DNA from: Phycisphaerales bacterium | Lineage (GTDB): Bacteria > Planctomycetota > Phycisphaerae > UBA1845 | NCBI GenBank assembly: GCA_003597935.1 | Contig: QZJT01000124.1 | Location: forward strand, 62,001-126,000 | Length of the DNA: 64,000 bases | Direction of reading: 5' to 3' | Shown: positions 12,426 through 61,889 of the stretch, piece by piece | Position numbering within the stretch: the stretch's first letter is position 1 | Layout of the letters: every line of letters starts with the position of its first letter | Program-made: the position numbers and the translations under genes | The notes under the pieces: model-generated | Told to the model about the DNA's origin: nothing | What the model saw: only the letters and a program-made list of their open reading frames with translations | The model's database searches: none

Positions 12426-12809
12426 ATGAAAGGCTCAGTGTTGCGAAACGCCGCCATCGTGGCGATGGCGTCGACGTCGATGGCGTCGGCGGCCGCGTAC
12501 GTGTGGGTCGGGCTGGGCGGCGGCTACTACAGCGCCGCAGGCAGTTGGAGCTGCTCCGGCGGCGGCTGCCAGACCTACCCGGACTCCACCGACGCGGACG
12601 TGCTGATCTCCAACCCCGGCGCCGTCTACCTCGACGTCGATTCGGAGGTGGACGATCTGACTCTCTGGGCGTCCGGAGAAGTGCTGTCGACCATCGACGG
12701 CCTGGACAGCGTGAACACCGTCGAGGCGGAGACGATCACATTCTCGGGATCGTCGTTCGGCGGCATCGTTCTGACCGGCAGCGCCGTCATCAAGACGGTG
12801 GACCGGTAG
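12426..12809 (+). CDS. Small exported protein, cassette A gene 1
   Basis: 127 residues, no recognised function. The ATG is chosen because AAAGGAG lies 7 nt upstream; the ORF-track start is 24 codons earlier. An N-terminal signal peptide (LRNAAIVAMASTSMASAAA) precedes a short extracellular domain with an aromatic motif (YVWVGLGGGYYSAAGSW), a Cys pair (CSGGGC), an Asp-rich turn (YPDSTDADVLI) and then alternating hydrophobic strands ending TGSAVIKTVDR. This pattern (W-x-G then PxxxDDxxI, then short beta strands) resembles the first rungs of secreted beta-helix proteins. It is paralogous in layout to the gene at 57734. The next gene begins 159 nt downstream on the same strand. Confidence 0.75.
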   Translation: MKGSVLRNAAIVAMASTSMASAAAYVWVGLGGGYYSAAGSWSCSGGGCQTYPDSTDADVLISNPGAVYLDVDSEVDDLTLWASGEVLSTIDGLDSVNTVEAETITFSGSSFGGIVLTGSAVIKTVDR

Positions 12810-12968
12810 ACCTGCGGATCGTCCGCCCGTTCGCGATGAACGGGCGGACGGGCGAGACGTATGTGTGTGTGTAGCGTACTGAAAGCAGGCGAATCGTGAG
12901 GGTTTCACGTCGCCGTCGCGGTCGATGTCGGAGACTACAGGATGATCTGGCTCACAGAGAACAACGAC

Positions 12969-14216
12969 ATGGCGCGGAACATGAATCCGGCAAAGGGCCC
13001 GGCGGCGCTCGCCGCCGCCGGGCTGGCGCTGGGCGCGACGCTGTTGGCCTCGGCCGGCGCGTCGGCGCAGGTGCCCGAAGGCTTCGAAATCGTGGAGTTC
13101 GCCGAGGGCGATTACTTCGCCGGTCCACCGCGCATGAACAACTGCGGCCAGATCGTCTATTACCAGCAGGTCGGTCCCGACTGGTATGACAAAGAGGTAT
13201 TCGTCTATGACAACGGACGGATCATGCAGATCAGCCGGACGGACCACGCAGATCGGAGTCCGGATATCAATGACCGCGGCGAAGTGGTCTGGAACAGGCG
13301 TCCGCGCGGCACCCACGGTAAGGACATCGAGATCATGCGATACCGAAATGGCCTGATCGACGTCGTGCAGCGATACGACGACGGCGTGCGCGAACCTGGC
13401 ATTAACGACCTTGGGCACATCGTCTGGCCGCGCTCCAGCGAAGGAGACTGCGAGGCCCCTTTCGTGATCATGCGGCTCGACGAAACGGGGCGAAAGCGAA
13501 TGACGCCGAAAGATGACATTACGGACCAATGGCCACAGATCAACAATCGCGGCTGGATCGCGTGGGATCATACAGATCACTGCCAGAATCCACGGCGCGG
13601 ATACATCCAGTTGTATCGCAGCAGCGAGATCATCACACTGCCGAGCGCTCAGGACTGGAGTCAGCTCACGACGATTAACGACGTTGGGCAGGTGGCCTGG
13701 AGTGCTGACTTCGTCGAACTCTGGGAGAATGGGCGTACTCAGGTTGTGGCTGATCCGGGACGGAACCCTCGCCTGAACAATCTCGGGGATTGTCTCTTCA
13801 TCCGTTGGCATGAGGATAGGAGAGTGTGGCAGACATGGTTGCGCCGCGTCTCGGAAGGTCACGAAGAGTATTTGCGCCTGGTCGATGAACCGCGATGGAA
13901 TACAAGCGGTGACATCAACGACTGGGGCGAGGCGTGCTGGAATTTCCTGACGACTCCTGACCCGCGGAATCTCGCCAGCGGACAACGCATCATGCGGCGT
14001 ACCCGCACGGGCGACGCAGACTTCGATTGGGACGTCGATCTTGCGGACCTGAGCCAGTTCTCCGCCTGCATGACCGATCCGGACTGGGACGAGGCGAACC
14101 AGCGCGGCCCCGAGGACTGCCTGTGCGATTGCCGTTTCCTGGACATCGACCACGACGGCGACGTGGACCTGAACGATTTCGCTCGCTTTCAGAACGCATT
14201 CACTGGACAGAGGTAG
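12969..14216 (+). CDS. Exported seven-repeat (HAF-like) protein with dockerin-like tail, cassette A gene 2
   Basis: About 415 residues. A signal peptide (LAAAGLALGATLLASAGASA) is followed by VPEGFEIVEFA and seven repeats carrying an IN-xxG-hhhW core (NNCGQIVYY, INDRGEVVWN, INDLGHIVWP, INNRGWIAWD, INDVGQVAWS, LNNLGDCLFI, INDWGEACWN). The core recalls the extracellular HAF repeat; seven copies suggest a beta-propeller (inference). The C-terminus has two Asp-rich loops (DADFDWDVDLADLSQFSAC and DIDHDGDVDLNDFARF) joined by CLCDC, like the paired Ca-binding loops of type I dockerins. ATG 12942 is an alternative start nine codons upstream. Closest relative seen is the gene at 58300. Role unknown; surface or matrix location is likely. 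Confidence 0.78.
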   Translation: MARNMNPAKGPAALAAAGLALGATLLASAGASAQVPEGFEIVEFAEGDYFAGPPRMNNCGQIVYYQQVGPDWYDKEVFVYDNGRIMQISRTDHADRSPDINDRGEVVWNRRPRGTHGKDIEIMRYRNGLIDVVQRYDDGVREPGINDLGHIVWPRSSEGDCEAPFVIMRLDETGRKRMTPKDDITDQWPQINNRGWIAWDHTDHCQNPRRGYIQLYRSSEIITLPSAQDWSQLTTINDVGQVAWSADFVELWENGRTQVVADPGRNPRLNNLGDCLFIRWHEDRRVWQTWLRRVSEGHEEYLRLVDEPRWNTSGDINDWGEACWNFLTTPDPRNLASGQRIMRRTRTGDADFDWDVDLADLSQFSACMTDPDWDEANQRGPEDCLCDCRFLDIDHDGDVDLNDFARFQNAFTGQR

Positions 14217-14281
14217 GCAGGCGTGACGGGTTTCTCACTCGATCACGACTGCTTTTCAGCTATGAAAGGAGCCGAAGGCTC

Positions 14282-15259
14282 ATGAAGATTGACTTTCGTA
14301 CTCTGATTCTGCTCGGCTGCTCGCTGCTGGTGCTGTTCGGCGCGGCAGTGGCGGAGGCGCAGGACAAGACATTCATCGGAGAGGATTTTGACCCGTGGAA
14401 CGTCGGGGCAAGTTGGAATCCGCCCGGCGAACCGGGTCCGGACGACGACGTCCTGATCCCCAACAACGTCGGCAACAGGTACTGCGTCATCCCGGAGGAC
14501 TACACGGACGCCGCGTGCAAGTCGCTGACCATCGAGGCCGGCGCGAAGCTGATCCTGGAGGACGGCTCGCAACTGACGCTGGGCGCCAACGACGCCCCCA
14601 ACAGCTCGAACATCGAAGGGCTGCTGGAGGTCGGCGAAGAGGGCGACCCGCTCAGCGCGGCCACCCTCACCATCGGCGACGATCACACGATGTACGGCGA
14701 CGGCGGCGTGCTGTTCGTCAACAAGCTCAGCACCGTCGACTATCCCGACGGCGAGGATCCCACGCTGACGCTCACCCACAACTGCCAGGGTGAACTCGGT
14801 CCGACGTGCTCGTTCATGATGCGCGGCGGCGGAAACATCGAGGTCGGACTCGTCAACAACGCCATCGTCCGCGCCGACCTGCCCTGGGCGGGAGATCCCG
14901 AAAATCCCTGCCCCATGTATCTTCAAGACCAGCCCAAGAGCGGTTCCGGGAGCTGGCGGGCCAAAGGCGCCGGACAGTTGATCGTGGAAACCTCGGTGAC
15001 CGGGTCGGCCCATTGGCGGCTGAGCAACCCGGCTGACGGGCACGCACCGGAGATCCACGTCGACTCGTGCCTGAACGGACTCAGCGGAGACGTCGACATC
15101 AGGGCTGGGCTTTTCCGGCTCACGGAGACCTTCTGTACCACCGGCAACCTCACCTGGGTCTCGACGGACTACGACTCGACCATCTCCTGGACGTCGTCGG
15201 GCATCTATGCCTTGTTCGGCGTCGACACTGCGTCGAGCTGCCCTTCCTGCGGCAATTGA
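14282..15259 (+). CDS. Exported beta-rich protein, cassette A gene 3
   Basis: 325 residues. The ATG at 14282 has AAAGGAG about 14 nt upstream and begins a clean signal peptide (LILLGCSLLVLFGAAVAEAQ). The mature protein starts with an aromatic block (DPWNVGASWNPPGEPGPDDD), then repeated short strands (LTIEAGAKLILEDGSQLTLG), the pattern of a right-handed beta-helix. Cysteines recur, including CLNGLSG and the terminal CPSCGN. Layout and end motif (C-GLSG, F-TTG-L, A-FG, CGN) are shared with the gene at 59675, so the two are paralogues. No catalytic motif is visible; a structural or adhesive extracellular role is the best guess. A perfect 24-bp palindrome covers the stop codon and a terminator follows. 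Confidence 0.75.
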   Translation: MKIDFRTLILLGCSLLVLFGAAVAEAQDKTFIGEDFDPWNVGASWNPPGEPGPDDDVLIPNNVGNRYCVIPEDYTDAACKSLTIEAGAKLILEDGSQLTLGANDAPNSSNIEGLLEVGEEGDPLSAATLTIGDDHTMYGDGGVLFVNKLSTVDYPDGEDPTLTLTHNCQGELGPTCSFMMRGGGNIEVGLVNNAIVRADLPWAGDPENPCPMYLQDQPKSGSGSWRAKGAGQLIVETSVTGSAHWRLSNPADGHAPEIHVDSCLNGLSGDVDIRAGLFRLTETFCTTGNLTWVSTDYDSTISWTSSGIYALFGVDTASSCPSCGN

Positions 15260-15276
15260 CGCGCGCGCGTCAATTG
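15253..15276. repeat. Perfect 24-bp palindrome over the stop of cassette A gene 3
   Basis: CAATTGACGCGC and its exact reverse complement meet at the centre. The palindrome contains the TGA stop codon of the preceding gene. It could be a protein-binding site or the base of an extended hairpin, and it lies 17 nt before the terminator. Confidence 0.7.
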
Positions 15277-15293
15277 TCCTCCTGACCCTCCTC

Positions 15294-15329
15294 GCCCGGC
15301 GCCGCCCCCGCGCGACGCCGGGCCTTTTT
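15294..15329 (+). terminator. Rho-independent terminator after cassette A
   Basis: GCCCGGCG at 15294-15301 pairs with CGCCGGGC at 15316-15323, an 8-bp GC stem with a 14-nt loop, followed by CTTTTTC. This is a standard intrinsic terminator for + strand transcripts and marks the end of the cassette. Confidence 0.75.
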
Positions 15330-15339
15330 CCTGTTCTTT

Positions 15340-15510
15340 CGAGAGATCACCAGCCCCCGCCCGCCGGCCGTCGCGAGAACGTTGTCGGGTTTCAGGTCGC
15401 GGTGAATGATCCCGCGTTGATGGTGTGGCGGACGGCGTCGCAGACCTGAGTGAGCAGTTCCAGACGCCGCCGGATGTCGAGCCTGCGCCCGCCCGCGTAG
15501 GCCATGATGG
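15340..15510 (-). pseudogene. Remnant of a serine/threonine kinase (catalytic-loop fragment)
   Basis: Reading the minus strand gives LDIRRRLELLTQVCDAVRH in one frame and, after a one-base slip, HQRGIIHRDLKPDNVLAT in the next. Together they are the alpha-E helix and catalytic loop (HRDLKPDN) of a Hanks-type kinase. Nothing resembling the N-lobe, DFG segment or C-lobe is in frame around it, and the first frame runs into a stop. It is a decayed fragment. No complete kinase gene lies next to it; the intact kinase at 60936 differs at this motif (HADMKPGN), so it is not an obvious donor. The rest of the gap 15511-15783 holds a disrupted copy of palindromic repeat family A (near 15599-15650). Confidence 0.7.
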
Positions 15511-15783
15511 AACTGGCGCCGTCCCCGGCAAAGCCGGGATGGCGCCCCGCAACGTATGGCGACGGTTGCGTCGACAGTGTGCGTCGTTGCGAGTGAGTCT
15601 CCGCGCGGGCTGACCTGCCTGCCGGCAGGCGGGAGCCCCGCGGCTGGCTGGCTGGCAGGGCCCGCCTGTTTTGTCACGTGCCCGGCCTTCCTGGCTCGTC
15701 CGTGGCATTGGCCCTGCGCCATAACTGCGGTTACGCTCGCCGGCGCTGTGCTGACCGCTTGCCGCAGCGACGGAGCCTGCTAG

Positions 15784-57733: not shown

Positions 57734-58162
57734 ATGGCTGTGTTGAGGAAGATGTTGCTGGAGGGGCCCCCGGCGTTGCGGGTCCTGGTCGCCGCGCTGG
57801 TTGTGCTGGTGCCGGCCGCTTCTGTCCTGGCGGCGGGCACGTTCATCTGGGACCAGCCCCCCGGGAATGGGGTCTGGAGCAACGAGGACAACTGGACGGC
57901 GCCTGCCACGTGTACGGCGGACTGTTATCCGCACACGACGGACGACGACGCCATCATCGACGACGAGCGACAACCGACCCTGACGTTGGACGACGATTAC
58001 ACCATCGACGATCTGACGGTCTCGTCGGGCCTGATCATCGCCATCGCGGGACAGGGCTACCAACTCTCCTGCGACTCCATCGTGATCGACAGTGGCTCTG
58101 AGCTGTCCGTCTGGGATCAGGTGAAGGTGGTCGCGCGGAAGACGGGTGACCCGGAACCGTGA
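57734..58162 (+). CDS. Small exported protein, cassette B gene 1
   Basis: 142 residues from ATG 57734 with GGAGG 7 nt upstream. Signal peptide LRVLVAALVVLVPAASVLAA, then FIWDQPPGNGVWSNEDNWTA, a Cys pair (CTADC), the acidic turn YPHTTDDDAIIDDE and strand repeats (LDDDYTIDDLTVSSGLIIAI, LSCDSIVIDSGSELSVWDQV). The W---G-W---NW opening followed by DDD-hI is the usual entrance of secreted beta-helix domains. Counterpart of the gene at 12426. Followed after 137 nt by cassette B gene 2. Confidence 0.77.
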   Translation: MAVLRKMLLEGPPALRVLVAALVVLVPAASVLAAGTFIWDQPPGNGVWSNEDNWTAPATCTADCYPHTTDDDAIIDDERQPTLTLDDDYTIDDLTVSSGLIIAIAGQGYQLSCDSIVIDSGSELSVWDQVKVVARKTGDPEP

Positions 58163-58299: not shown

Positions 58300-59544
58300 A
58301 TGGCCCGGTGCGCCGGGCGGCGGAAGGGAACGGCTCAGAGCGTGTCTGCACGTCGCGTTAGTTGGATGATCGGGAGCATTGCGGCCGTCCTGGGGGCAGC
58401 CCAAAGCGTCTGCGCCCAGACGGAGGTGCCGGAGGGTTTCGAGCTGATCGAAATCGTGGCGTGGCCTCGCTACGCCTTTCGCGCGACGATCAACAACTGC
58501 GGCGAACTGGCCTTTACGATGCAGCTTGATGAATCGCAGGATTCGCAGGAGATCTTCCGCTACGACAACGGGTCGCTCGTGCGCCTGACGCACGACGACT
58601 ACCGTGACAAGGGCGCCAAGATCAACGACGACGGCGACATCGTATGGGCTCGAAGGATCCTGCCGCCGAGCGACGACCAGATCATCTTGTGGCAAGACGG
58701 GCGGGAGGCGATTATCGATGCCGTCGGCCCGGACGAGATGACGATCTACACGGCCATCAACAACCTTGGCTGGGTCGCCTGGGGACGCGGACCGCAGAAC
58801 GGCTGCAACGGCGACGCGATGCTGTGGGACGGCCGGTCCGTGCGGCGGATCAGCAAGCGTGACGACGACCGCTGGAACCTGTCGCCGAGCCTGAACGACC
58901 TGGGCGACATGGTGTGGTCGCGGATGAACGTCTGCGTCAATCCCTGGAACGCCCGGATCCAGCTTTGGTCGGACGGGAAAAGATCCACGCTGCCATCCGC
59001 GTTCACGCAGCTTCAGAACCCGGAGATCAACGACCGCAGGCAGATTACCTGGAGTGCAGCCGGTGAACGCACATTGATCGAACTGTGGTCGGATGGACGG
59101 ACCCGCGTGCTGACCGACAGGGGCCTGCTGGCGAACATCAATGATCTCGGCGACGTGATCTTCAACCGTACGGACGACGCTTACGGGGTGGCGCAGATCT
59201 GGCTGTACCGCGCGGCGGACGGTCGCTTCATGCGGCTGGTCGACGACCCGGACGCCAACCACACGTGGCCCGACATCAGCGAATGGGGAGAAGCAGTGTG
59301 GGAGTGGGGCTACGGTCCACCGGAGCGGTGGTTCGGCATCATCATGATGCGCCGCATTCGGACCGGAGACTCGCAATTCGATGGCGTCATTGACGCCATA
59401 GACTACGCCACGCTCGCCGACTGCTTGACGGGTCCCGGACGAGTTGACCGTCTCTGCGACTGCCGCTTCCTCGACCTCGACTGCGACGGGGATGTGGACC
59501 TGGGCGACTTCGCCCGGTTTCAGAACGCCTTTCAGGGACGGTAG
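58300..59544 (+). CDS. Exported seven-repeat (HAF-like) protein with dockerin-like tail, cassette B gene 2
   Basis: 414 residues. Signal peptide WMIGSIAAVLGAAQSVCAQ, then VPEGFELIEIV (compare VPEGFEIVEFA in cassette A) and seven repeats (INNCGELAFT, INDDGDIVWA, INNLGWVAWG, LNDLGDMVWS, INDRRQITWS, INDLGDVIFN, ISEWGEAVWE). Linkers contain a hhLWxDGR motif between repeats. The C-terminus MRRIRTGDSQFDGVIDAIDY and RLCDCRFLDLDCDGDVDLGD FARFQNAFQGR carries the paired acidic loops seen in type I dockerins. Same architecture and motifs throughout as 12969-14216, so a paralogue. Function unknown; exported. Confidence 0.8.
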   Translation: MARCAGRRKGTAQSVSARRVSWMIGSIAAVLGAAQSVCAQTEVPEGFELIEIVAWPRYAFRATINNCGELAFTMQLDESQDSQEIFRYDNGSLVRLTHDDYRDKGAKINDDGDIVWARRILPPSDDQIILWQDGREAIIDAVGPDEMTIYTAINNLGWVAWGRGPQNGCNGDAMLWDGRSVRRISKRDDDRWNLSPSLNDLGDMVWSRMNVCVNPWNARIQLWSDGKRSTLPSAFTQLQNPEINDRRQITWSAAGERTLIELWSDGRTRVLTDRGLLANINDLGDVIFNRTDDAYGVAQIWLYRAADGRFMRLVDDPDANHTWPDISEWGEAVWEWGYGPPERWFGIIMMRRIRTGDSQFDGVIDAIDYATLADCLTGPGRVDRLCDCRFLDLDCDGDVDLGDFARFQNAFQGR

Positions 59545-59674: not shown

Positions 59675-60739
59675 ATGCGATTTCTGGCAGTCATATTCAT
59701 GGCGCTGCTGGTCGCCTTCGGGGCGGTCGGCGGCTTCACGCAGCCGGCAGTGGCGCAAGATTCTACCACCTGGGAGGGTGACAGCGGAGAAAGTTGGTAC
59801 GAGGAGAAATGGAGCAACGGCGTTCCCACCGCCAGCCTCGAGGCCATCATCAACAACGGCACGGTCCCCCATGTTCCGCCGAACGCGAACGCGGCCGTGT
59901 GCAAGAAACTGACCATTGCCAACGCCGAGAACTTCACTGGCACGAGTCTGACCATCAAGGCGGGCGGGCGGCTCATCGTCGGCGACGGTACCAGCGCGAC
60001 GTCCGTGCTCGATGCGGAGGACAACGTCCTCACCATCGAGGGCGGGACGGTCGATCCTGAGTTGGACGGCGGTAAGCTGCTGATCTCCGGCGTGCAGACC
60101 TTCACCGGCGCCGGGAGCATCGTTCTTGAGCTGTACGATGGGACCAGGACTTCGCTGATCGCGGAGGCGACCGATGACGAAGACCGGCTCATCCTGGGCT
60201 CGGACTGCGGGTTCTCGCCCATCGAGCAGTCCTGCTCCATCAGGCTCATCGGGCAGGGCGACGTGCAGGTCGCCCTCGACAATCGGGCCTTCGTCATCTC
60301 CAACGACGGCAACTACAACAGCGGCGTCGGCCTGCACCTGTCAACACGCCAGAAGATCACCGACGATGAGGCGGAAGGCTACTGGATCGCGCAGGCGGAC
60401 TCCATTCTGTGGGTCGACACCCTCGTCACCGGACCCGGAGAGTGGCACGTGACGGATCCCGCCTGCCAGGGCGCCATCATCGTGGGGCACGGCGGCAACG
60501 ACGGCTGTGTGGTGGGCAGCGGCAAGGTCATCCTCAATACCGGTTGCGGCGGCCTCAGCGGTCACACGCTCAAGGTCGAGAACAATACATTCTCCACTAC
60601 CGGACGACTCGTGGGGGAGTCGGTTTACAGCGACGACGAAGGAAAATGGACGCGTCCAACGATCGCCGCCCCCGGTGGCACGGCCATGTTCGGCCTCAGC
60701 GCCGAGCCAGACCCCGCGAACGTGTGCGGCGGAAACTGA
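59675..60739 (+). CDS. Exported beta-rich protein, cassette B gene 3
   Basis: 354 residues from ATG 59675 (GGGAGACAG upstream). Signal peptide AVIFMALLVAFGAVGGFTQP with AVAQ cleavage. The mature part starts TTWEGDSGESWYEEKWSNGV and continues with beta-helix-like strands (LTIKAGGRLIVGDGTSATSV, GGKLLISGVQTFTGAGSIVL). Near the end it shows CGGLSGHTLKVENNTFSTTG and AMFGLSAEPDPANVCGGN, matching the C-terminal pattern of 14282-15259. No catalytic motif. Convergent with the kinase gene at 60936; an inverted-repeat element separates them. Confidence 0.77.
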   Translation: MRFLAVIFMALLVAFGAVGGFTQPAVAQDSTTWEGDSGESWYEEKWSNGVPTASLEAIINNGTVPHVPPNANAAVCKKLTIANAENFTGTSLTIKAGGRLIVGDGTSATSVLDAEDNVLTIEGGTVDPELDGGKLLISGVQTFTGAGSIVLELYDGTRTSLIAEATDDEDRLILGSDCGFSPIEQSCSIRLIGQGDVQVALDNRAFVISNDGNYNSGVGLHLSTRQKITDDEAEGYWIAQADSILWVDTLVTGPGEWHVTDPACQGAIIVGHGGNDGCVVGSGKVILNTGCGGLSGHTLKVENNTFSTTGRLVGESVYSDDEGKWTRPTIAAPGGTAMFGLSAEPDPANVCGGN

Positions 60740-60807: not shown

Positions 60808-60930
60808 AAAAAAAGGTGTCAGGATGATTTTTGCGGGTGCGTCAGATGCCGTTCAGCCGCAAACCATCCCGGAGCCGATCCGGGCATCCGGGTGGTGCAT
60901 TACAGAAAAATCATCCTGACACCTTTTTCG
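60808..60930. repeat. Element with perfect 23-bp inverted termini between convergent genes
   Basis: AAAAAGGTGTCAGGATGATTTTT at 60810-60832 is the exact reverse complement of 60906-60928. The 73-bp interior has a smaller CCGGAGCCGATCCGG hairpin. T-runs at both ends mean it could act as a two-way terminator for the cassette B and kinase transcripts. GGTGTCAGG-type ends are common in dispersed inverted repeats of related genomes (recollection, not checked). Confidence 0.8.
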
Positions 60931-60935
60931 TACCG

Positions 60936-61889
60936 TCAGATGCCTTCGTCCTGCGCGCTCTCGTTCAGAAACGCGCTCAACTCGTCGTCCGTGAACACTT
61001 CCCGTGGCCGGTCATCGAAGGCGTGCTCGTCGTCCTCGCCGAACTCGAATTCATCTTCGATTTGCGGCTTGGTCAGCACGGCGTGCGCCAGGACCAGCCG
61101 CTGCTGCACCTTGATGATGTCGGACGGCCGCTCGTCCGGCGAGGAGCGGCAGCACTCGTCGATGAGCTTCGCCACCGGCAGCGGCAGCTCGGTCAGCACG
61201 GGCTGCGGCGCCTCCTCCACCCGCTTACCCAGCAGCCGCTGGGAGTGTGGATTGACCGTCTGGTTCATCTCCGTCGGAACCGGCTTGCCGGTCAGCACGC
61301 GGTGCAGGGCGGCGCCCAGGCCGAACACGTCGGTCCGCTGGTCGATGGTGTTGCGCAGGGCCTGCTCGGGGGCCATGTAGTCGATCGTGCCCTGGATTCG
61401 AGGTTTCACTTCGCCCAACTTGCAGCTCTGCCCCAGGTCGATGAGCTTCACGTCGCCTTCGGGCGTGACGATGATGTTGCCCGGCTTCATGTCGGCGTGG
61501 ACGTAGCCGGCCCGGTGCATGGCCGCCAGCCCCGCCGCCACCCGGGCGAACAGGCGCAGCACGTCCGCCAGAGAGGCCTTGAAGTTCTTGTCCGACATGG
61601 AGATGCCCGGAACGTACTCCATGAACAGCAGCGCCCCACGGGTGCGCAGCCGCTGGCGGATCAGGCGGAATTCATACACCTTTCGGATCACCGGATGGTC
61701 CAGGCGCGATCCGACGGTGTATTCGTCCCGCATGAGGTCGATGACCTTCATGTCCTCGGGCGCGCGGACCTTGGCGGTCTTGATGGCGTAGTCCGTGCCG
61801 GTCCTCATGCAGCGGGCACGGTAGATGGCCGTGTCCGCGCCGCTGCCGATGCGTTCAACTACCCGGTAATTCGGGATGTCCAGCGTCAT
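60936..61889 (-). CDS. Hanks-type serine/threonine protein kinase
   Basis: 317 residues. Gly-rich loop RVVERIGSGADTAIYRA, ATP-binding Lys in YAIKTAK, catalytic loop YVHADMKPGNIIVT (HAD in place of HRD, catalytic Asp kept), metal motif KLIDLGQ (DLG rather than DFG), APE in TIDYMAPEQAL and DVFGLGAALHRVLTG of the F helix. An acidic C-terminal tail (EDEFEFGEDDEHAFDD) ends the protein. There is no membrane helix or sensor domain, so it is cytoplasmic. The HAD/DLG variants suggest an active but divergent kinase. Neighbour of cassette B, convergent. Confidence 0.93.
   Translation of the reverse strand: MTLDIPNYRVVERIGSGADTAIYRARCMRTGTDYAIKTAKVRAPEDMKVIDLMRDEYTVGSRLDHPVIRKVYEFRLIRQRLRTRGALLFMEYVPGISMSDKNFKASLADVLRLFARVAAGLAAMHRAGYVHADMKPGNIIVTPEGDVKLIDLGQSCKLGEVKPRIQGTIDYMAPEQALRNTIDQRTDVFGLGAALHRVLTGKPVPTEMNQTVNPHSQRLLGKRVEEAPQPVLTELPLPVAKLIDECCRSSPDERPSDIIKVQQRLVLAHAVLTKPQIEDEFEFGEDDEHAFDDRPREVFTDDELSAFLNESAQDEGI

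Follow-up and report, generated by a model that had tools for sequence, protein, structure and literature searches.

A dispersed three-gene cassette of exported proteins, centered on a predicted TolB-like propeller, in uncultured Phycisphaerae

Introduction

The propellers of TolB and of the S9 peptidases (PDB codes 2w8b and 5yzm) are the described structures that most resemble the central protein, P (propeller), of a three-gene cassette found twice in a stretch of Planctomycetota DNA. The likeness lies in the propeller fold, which for P is a predicted structure, whereas P has neither the N-terminal domain of TolB nor a peptidase domain and carries a dockerin-like tail instead. The repeats of P recall the family TIGR05002 (choice-of-anchor NxxGxxAF; also TIGR02913, HAF repeat), whose proteins are likewise exported, with tandem IN-xxG-type repeats and exchangeable anchors; all P proteins, however, score below the cut-off of this family, the model of which is silent on S and L partners and on mobility. 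These two partners, S (short) and L (long), share an N-terminal module that resembles the G8 domain (PF10162), for which two relatives of L pass the cut-off, but only part of the domain is covered, the proteins studied here remain below the cut-off, and S and L are bacterial, stand-alone small proteins.

The tail of P has the two acidic loops of type I dockerins (PF00404) and is found on exported proteins of Planctomycetes, yet its score is below the cut-off and the genome has no cohesin above the cut-off. For other Planctomycetes, a "planctosome" based on cohesin and dockerin has been proposed (PMC6461901), whose proteins (peptidases, lamin-tail, and HYR proteins) differ from S, P, and L. In its genomic setting the cassette is comparable to integrative elements that target gene 3' ends and to integron-type cargo, in that it has no recombinase of its own, is dispersed, and lies beside a duplicated gene 3' end; it differs from them in having no integrase, no shared attachment core that could be seen, four unrelated targets, and repeats of 136–350 bp.

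The fold and the anchor types of the cassette proteins are already known. To our knowledge the S-P-L system itself is undescribed, and a search of published work found no description of the three genes together, of their copy number, or of the way in which they insert, although this is weak evidence of absence. On balance, we favor the reading that S-P-L is one genetic and functional unit, which encodes an exported surface assembly and has been inserted behind host genes and amplified into a variable repertoire.

Results

Two Cassettes in One Window

The window, i.e. the whole analyzed stretch of 64,000 nucleotides, contains six open reading frames in two sets of three, with the same strand and the same S-P-L order in both (cassettes A and B, Table 1), exactly as laid out in the preliminary description, and the motifs quoted there as common to the middle and to the large proteins were also found. 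All six genes encode a signal-peptide-like N-terminal stretch. In P of A, an alternative upstream start at 12942 would give a protein of 424 aa.

Table 1. Positions of the cassette genes and of the P tails in the window
Cassette	Feature	Position	Strand	Description and basis
A	S	12426..12809	+	127 aa; short exported protein, G8-like N-terminal module; ORF; profile matches to 20+ other S/L proteins
A	P	12969..14216	+	415 aa; exported propeller protein; ORF; TolB-like fold predicted for partner in B
A	Dockerin-like two-loop tail of P	14010..14213	+	Tail common to ~38 other proteins of the genome
A	L	14282..15259	+	325 aa; long exported β-rich protein; ORF; profile; G8 sub-threshold, E 0.0011
B	S	57734..58162	+	142 aa; ORF; 50% identity to S of the C142 cassette
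B	P	58300..59544	+	414 aa; ORF; AlphaFold2 model and Foldseek search (see text)
B	Dockerin-like tail of P	59366..59541	+	Dockerin_1, E 0.0017
B	L	59675..60739	+	354 aa; ORF; alignment to L of A (see text)

In an all-against-all alignment of the six genes, the positional partners are similar. The two P proteins align over their whole length with 38% identity (E about 1e-78). The cassette had been made to depend on similarity between the outer genes of the two loci, and this was detected in both cases: the L proteins share 27% identity (E about 4e-15), and the S proteins, a weak pair on their own (E 1e-3, z = 6.1, with none of 200 shuffles reaching the score), are firmly linked by a profile built from all copies. 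Matches across positions are all weaker, with the exception of the N-terminal module common to S and L, which the first reading had overlooked. S is a short paralogue of the L N terminus, and most S proteins match the L profile at 1e-5 to 1e-26. A chance likeness of the two loci is ruled out by the alignments, the profile, and the synteny in other genomes.

Kinase sequences lie behind both cassettes on the minus strand, with a protein-kinase remnant (HRDLKPDN, 15260–15722) following A and an intact Ser/Thr kinase gene (60936–61889) following B; the two share 37% identity over 27 aa (E 7e-4). Kinases are common in the phylum and this neighborhood may be a coincidence. Just 3' of cassette B, at 60808–60930, an inverted repeat (aaaaaaaggtgtcaggatgattttt ... 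aaaaatcatcctgacaccttttt) has the look of a transposon- or REP-type palindrome.

Copies in the Window Genome

The cassette had been described as present twice, which holds for the window but not for the genome (4.3 Mb in 155 contigs, 77% complete), where at least five further loci have two or three of the genes around P. P was found at 10 places, representing 9–10 copies, and P of A is 38–47% identical to seven full-length paralogues. The order S-P-L occurs at six or seven sites (A and B on contig C1, and contigs C94, C142, C103, and C116/C84); on C113 an S-P pair runs up to the contig end, on C28 the order is S-L-P, and on C53 P is alone. C116 and C84 start with an identical 98 bp in identical orientation (L057:1-98 and L056:1-98), inside two P-gene halves that are probably one gene, split by an element with 98-bp inverted-repeat ends that the assembly could not cross.

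Pairs or arrays of S and L without P are found on C26, C43, C5, and C1 (132.9–136.1 kb). Those at C5:66.3–69.6 kb (L061), C43:29.7–31.8 kb (L060), and the C1 position (L062) alternate as S-L-S-L and constitute a second type of S/L locus. Contigs C13 and C14 both terminate within near-identical S genes.

Distribution in Other Genomes

P has matches at 1e-10 in 16 of 60 relatives, a count that includes the window genome and a few genomes matched mainly through the tail, and reaches 14, 13, 11, and 8 copies in genomes G048, G038, G021, and G006, respectively. The propeller part of P had no match among the 391 other genomes of a phylum-wide draw (392 with the window genome, the sole match), and P is present in 6 of 27 genomes of the family of G038. 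The named relatives with the cassette are Phycisphaerae/Phycisphaerales metagenome-assembled genomes (MAGs).

Most P sites have the arrangement S-P-L or S-L-P, at dozens of dispersed loci within a single order, across two families and several genera. Of the 13 P genes of G038, 12 have S upstream and 12 have L, whether whole or broken, downstream. Strong full-length L is confined to genomes with strong P (8 of 8), with three genomes having P without strong L (Fisher p 6e-8). Across cassettes, the distances of the three proteins covary (r = 0.47 for P-S, 0.64 for P-L, and 0.61 for S-L; 0 of 2000 permutations as high), and this covariation persists when the permutation is made inside genomes. The synteny at dozens of loci, the P-L co-occurrence, and the distance covariation bear out the earlier proposal that the three genes are an evolutionary unit, and we have very little doubt that S-P-L (or S-L-P) is a real one. 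The propeller gene without its flanking pair had been named as the observation that would undo the cassette; it does occur, but in the minority of cases (at C53, in G031, and, for a divergent P clade, in part of G021, with G011 only partly resolved), the trio being usual at most sites. P alone at some sites, together with the S-L arrays without P, reveals that the trio is not obligatory.

A tree of P sorts the copies by genome, with all 13 copies of G038 in one group and six of G006 in another, and the window genome requiring four changes; the pattern is mainly one of lineage-specific amplification. A phage origin was rejected, with no PHROG match of note and no P relative in viral contigs, as was a known anti-phage defense system, for which PADLOC gave only a spurious 12-bit match.

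Predicted Fold and Anchor of P

Structure models were made from few sequences, comprising the window proteins and those of related loci. The AlphaFold2 model of P from cassette B is a propeller (mean pLDDT 83, pTM 0.83) with an unreliable tail, and a Foldseek search with this model found TolB (E 4e-10, probability 1.00, 13–15% identity) as well as S9-peptidase propellers (12–15% identity over both groups). No TolB family model matched P in Pfam and NCBIfam scans, and no TolB sequence match was obtained in a search of PDB sequences. The scores of P against TIGR05002 (25.6 and 22.2 bits in the window, at most 33.7 in relatives) do not reach the cut-off of 50. The preliminary description had suggested a Ca-dependent propeller: the repeats, seven in number, are indeed modeled as a propeller of the TolB-like type, but the acidic loops are located in the dockerin-like C-terminal tail and not in the propeller.

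This tail scores 19.0 bits against Dockerin_1 in B and 20.8 in a relative, with no match in A, and the gathering cut-off of 22.9 is not reached. The tail alone is common to ~38 unrelated proteins of the window genome and consequently has the look of a tag for sorting or anchoring. The anchor varies among P homologues, being dockerin-like, Cys-rich (G006), or an IPTL-CTERM above the Pfam cut-off (G031). The Cys-rich form, at L105–L110 of G006, is an extra C-terminal domain of P (DDHNCC..H..PGC...CVC...CC...W...C...CGECP), the last residues of which are Cys-Pro, an ending that is also found on many L proteins.

For L, only the first 115 residues are well modeled, as β structure, and the model beyond residue 115 was too poor for use. 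Against G8 (cut-off 22.9 bits), L of A scores 19.3 and two L relatives 23.0 and 24.4, with no match for L of B.

Glycan binding is frequent among β-solenoid and G8-like folds, and it is conceivable that S-P-L is a nutrient-binding or polymer-handling module that presents polysaccharide to secreted enzymes, with copies that differ by substrate and a mobility that is incidental. Dockerin tails in Planctomycetes with extracellular degradation (PMC6461901) would fit such a module. Against it, domain scans of S, P, and L gave no match to a catalytic domain or a glycan-binding family, the insertion sites described below are unrelated housekeeping genes and not polysaccharide loci, and no cohesin (PF00963) was above the cut-off in the 77% complete window genome (best 18.7 of 24.1 bits), a result that also led us to reject a cohesin scaffold as the partner of the tail. 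We consider this module unlikely. In the surface assembly that we favor, P would be a TolB-like propeller whose exchangeable C-terminal anchor, usually the dockerin-like tail, keeps it on the cell surface. S and L would be short and long G8-like β-solenoid proteins acting with P, perhaps in a physical complex. The layer so formed would most likely bind ligands, perhaps varied ones, or mediate adhesion.

Selection, Decay, and Recombination of Copies

P is under purifying selection, with dN/dS values of 0.09–0.23 as compared with 0.26–0.47 for L and mostly 0.24–0.34 for S (NG86 counts, with dS often near saturation). All 13 P genes of G038, a genome whose loci were identified by way of P, have an open frame, whereas 6 of the 13 sites have a broken L or none; a search for L in this genome found none without P, bar one weak match. 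The L gene of the L089 cassette of G038 is interrupted by an antisense ORF of 255 aa (L089:6278-7045).

In G006, three L genes have an in-frame TGA (at about 4067 in L106, about 4058 in L107, and about 233 in L108) behind which the homology continues. The TGA is in the same variable loop of all three, whereas a fourth L gene is intact and a fifth, a mere fragment, has a TAG. Recoding of TGA was considered and rejected: the position of the TGA shifts within the loop, and one more copy is plainly broken, which makes decay likelier.

Identity between cassettes can be mosaic. In a comparison of L087 with L091, S and the start of P are mostly 97–100% identical, the remainder of P 45–87%, and the start of L 96–100%, and in two cassettes of MAG SJ659 the start of P is 100% and L mostly 89–96% identical, with only about 50% in the body of P. 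These patterns indicate that cassettes recombine.

It might be argued that S, P, and L are a selfish or passenger unit, riding a mobile process with no joint surface function and spreading because its insertion behind genes is harmless. The dispersed, patchy, and multi-copy occurrence, the clear insertion scars, and the decay of L at many sites are in keeping with this, but the low dN/dS of P, its open frame at every G038 site, the export signals kept in all three genes, and the lack of any likeness to a mobility protein among them are not, and we regard a mere passenger as distinctly improbable. The reading of S-P-L as a functional surface unit would instead have its copies diverge under purifying selection and recombine together, giving a variant repertoire specific to each lineage.

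Insertion Scars behind Host Genes

At four loci, the cassette is bracketed by direct repeats of a host-gene 3' end. The repeated sequence is the end of a DUF3419 gene in L085 (G038; 305 bp, copies 99.3% identical), that of a GNAT gene in L095 (G038; 350 bp, 99.4%), and that of recO in L204 (G466; 138 bp, 95.7%), where the repeat stops exactly at the stop codon. At L115 (G021), repeats of about 136 bp (90.5%) bracket an insert in which P is present twice, alongside a truncated gene of the S/L type; the host gene, which has no Pfam match, is read from its P-loop as that of an AAA-like ATPase, and the repeat reaches its stop codon, with weak similarity continuing slightly beyond. The edge of the repeat lies 6 bp short of the stop-codon end in L085, inside the stop codon in L095, at its end in L204, and about at its end in L115. 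In all four cases the host gene is upstream of the cassette and on the same strand, and removal in silico of the cassette and one repeat from L085 and L095 restored one continuous gene. The inserts of L085, L095, and L204 are about 3.0–3.2 kb and are filled by S-P-L, with no recombinase or transposase gene found by ORF inspection. The location of cassettes between duplicated pieces of host genes indicates that the unit spreads as a package, without a known recombinase inside. This mobility as a unit is the most unusual property of the cassette and had not been anticipated in the preliminary description.

A further copy of a gene end was observed at L087, where a 130-bp copy (91%) of the leuS 3' end follows L, and intact leuS is directly upstream of the sister cassette L091. 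Weaker scars are found at L200, where P alone is between copies of a gene end plus terminator, at L092, where the repeats are a palindromic element located 55 bp beyond a stop codon, and at L087, with a 61-bp repeat. The repeats of L117 (84%) and L213, the latter being internal copies of L, were excluded from the 3'-end scars. Flanking repeats were not found around A, B, or the other copies of the window genome, and no scar is visible at most older cassette copies. A pile-up of contig ends was rejected as proof of flanking repeats, most ends being without a second copy in the stretches examined; two contig ends of G006 are near-identical P 3' ends. In G038, a family of palindromic repeats of 100–120 bp (TCCGAACCCGCCGCGCCAAGCGGCGGG...) is scattered around cassettes and elsewhere (L084, L085, L086, L089, L092, and L095).

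As a control, 77 stretches (793 kb) were searched for direct repeats (length 100 bp or more, identity 88% or more, spacing 0.8–6 kb). All seven pairs found bracket or abut a cassette gene, although the stretches are cassette-centered and the control is therefore suggestive and not a rate.

When an element brings along the 3' end of the gene that it targets, duplication up to the stop codon classically results, and such duplication is seen here at four host genes. Site-specific integration by a tyrosine or serine recombinase in trans, with the unit carrying its own copy of the gene end, is nevertheless very unlikely given four unrelated targets without a shared core, identity over 136–350 bp, and no integrase ORF in the three fully S-P-L-filled inserts.

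Discussion

Collectively, the data point to a surface assembly encoded by a unit that multiplies within chromosomes. By the mechanism that we propose, the entire unit with its own leader would be copied to new chromosomal sites that follow immediately on the stop codon of a co-oriented host gene, and the last 136–350 bp of that gene would be duplicated on the far side, so that the host gene and its downstream neighbor both remain intact. The simplest mode of movement would be a piece or circle of DNA, consisting of a host-gene 3' end and the cassette, that re-enters by homologous recombination; alternatively, a recombinase might act in trans.

Whether S-P-L deserves to be called a new kind of mobile unit is a more tentative matter: it may be one of three exported proteins that is free of a recombinase, duplicates 0.14–0.35 kb of a host-gene end, and maintains a diversifying surface repertoire. 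By analogy, and with similar reserve, the proposed logic of such a repertoire may be comparable to that of antigenic-variation families, but with spread by an insertion that duplicates 3' ends.

In S-P-L, uncultured Phycisphaerae have a multi-copy gene system whose unit is clear, whose core protein has a predicted fold, and for which a phylogenetic range is available. Its insertion scars offer a handle on how cargo free of a recombinase multiplies in a chromosome while leaving genes unbroken. If P is a variable surface receptor, the system would also provide a model of how surfaces diversify in a bacterial group for which almost no genetics exists.
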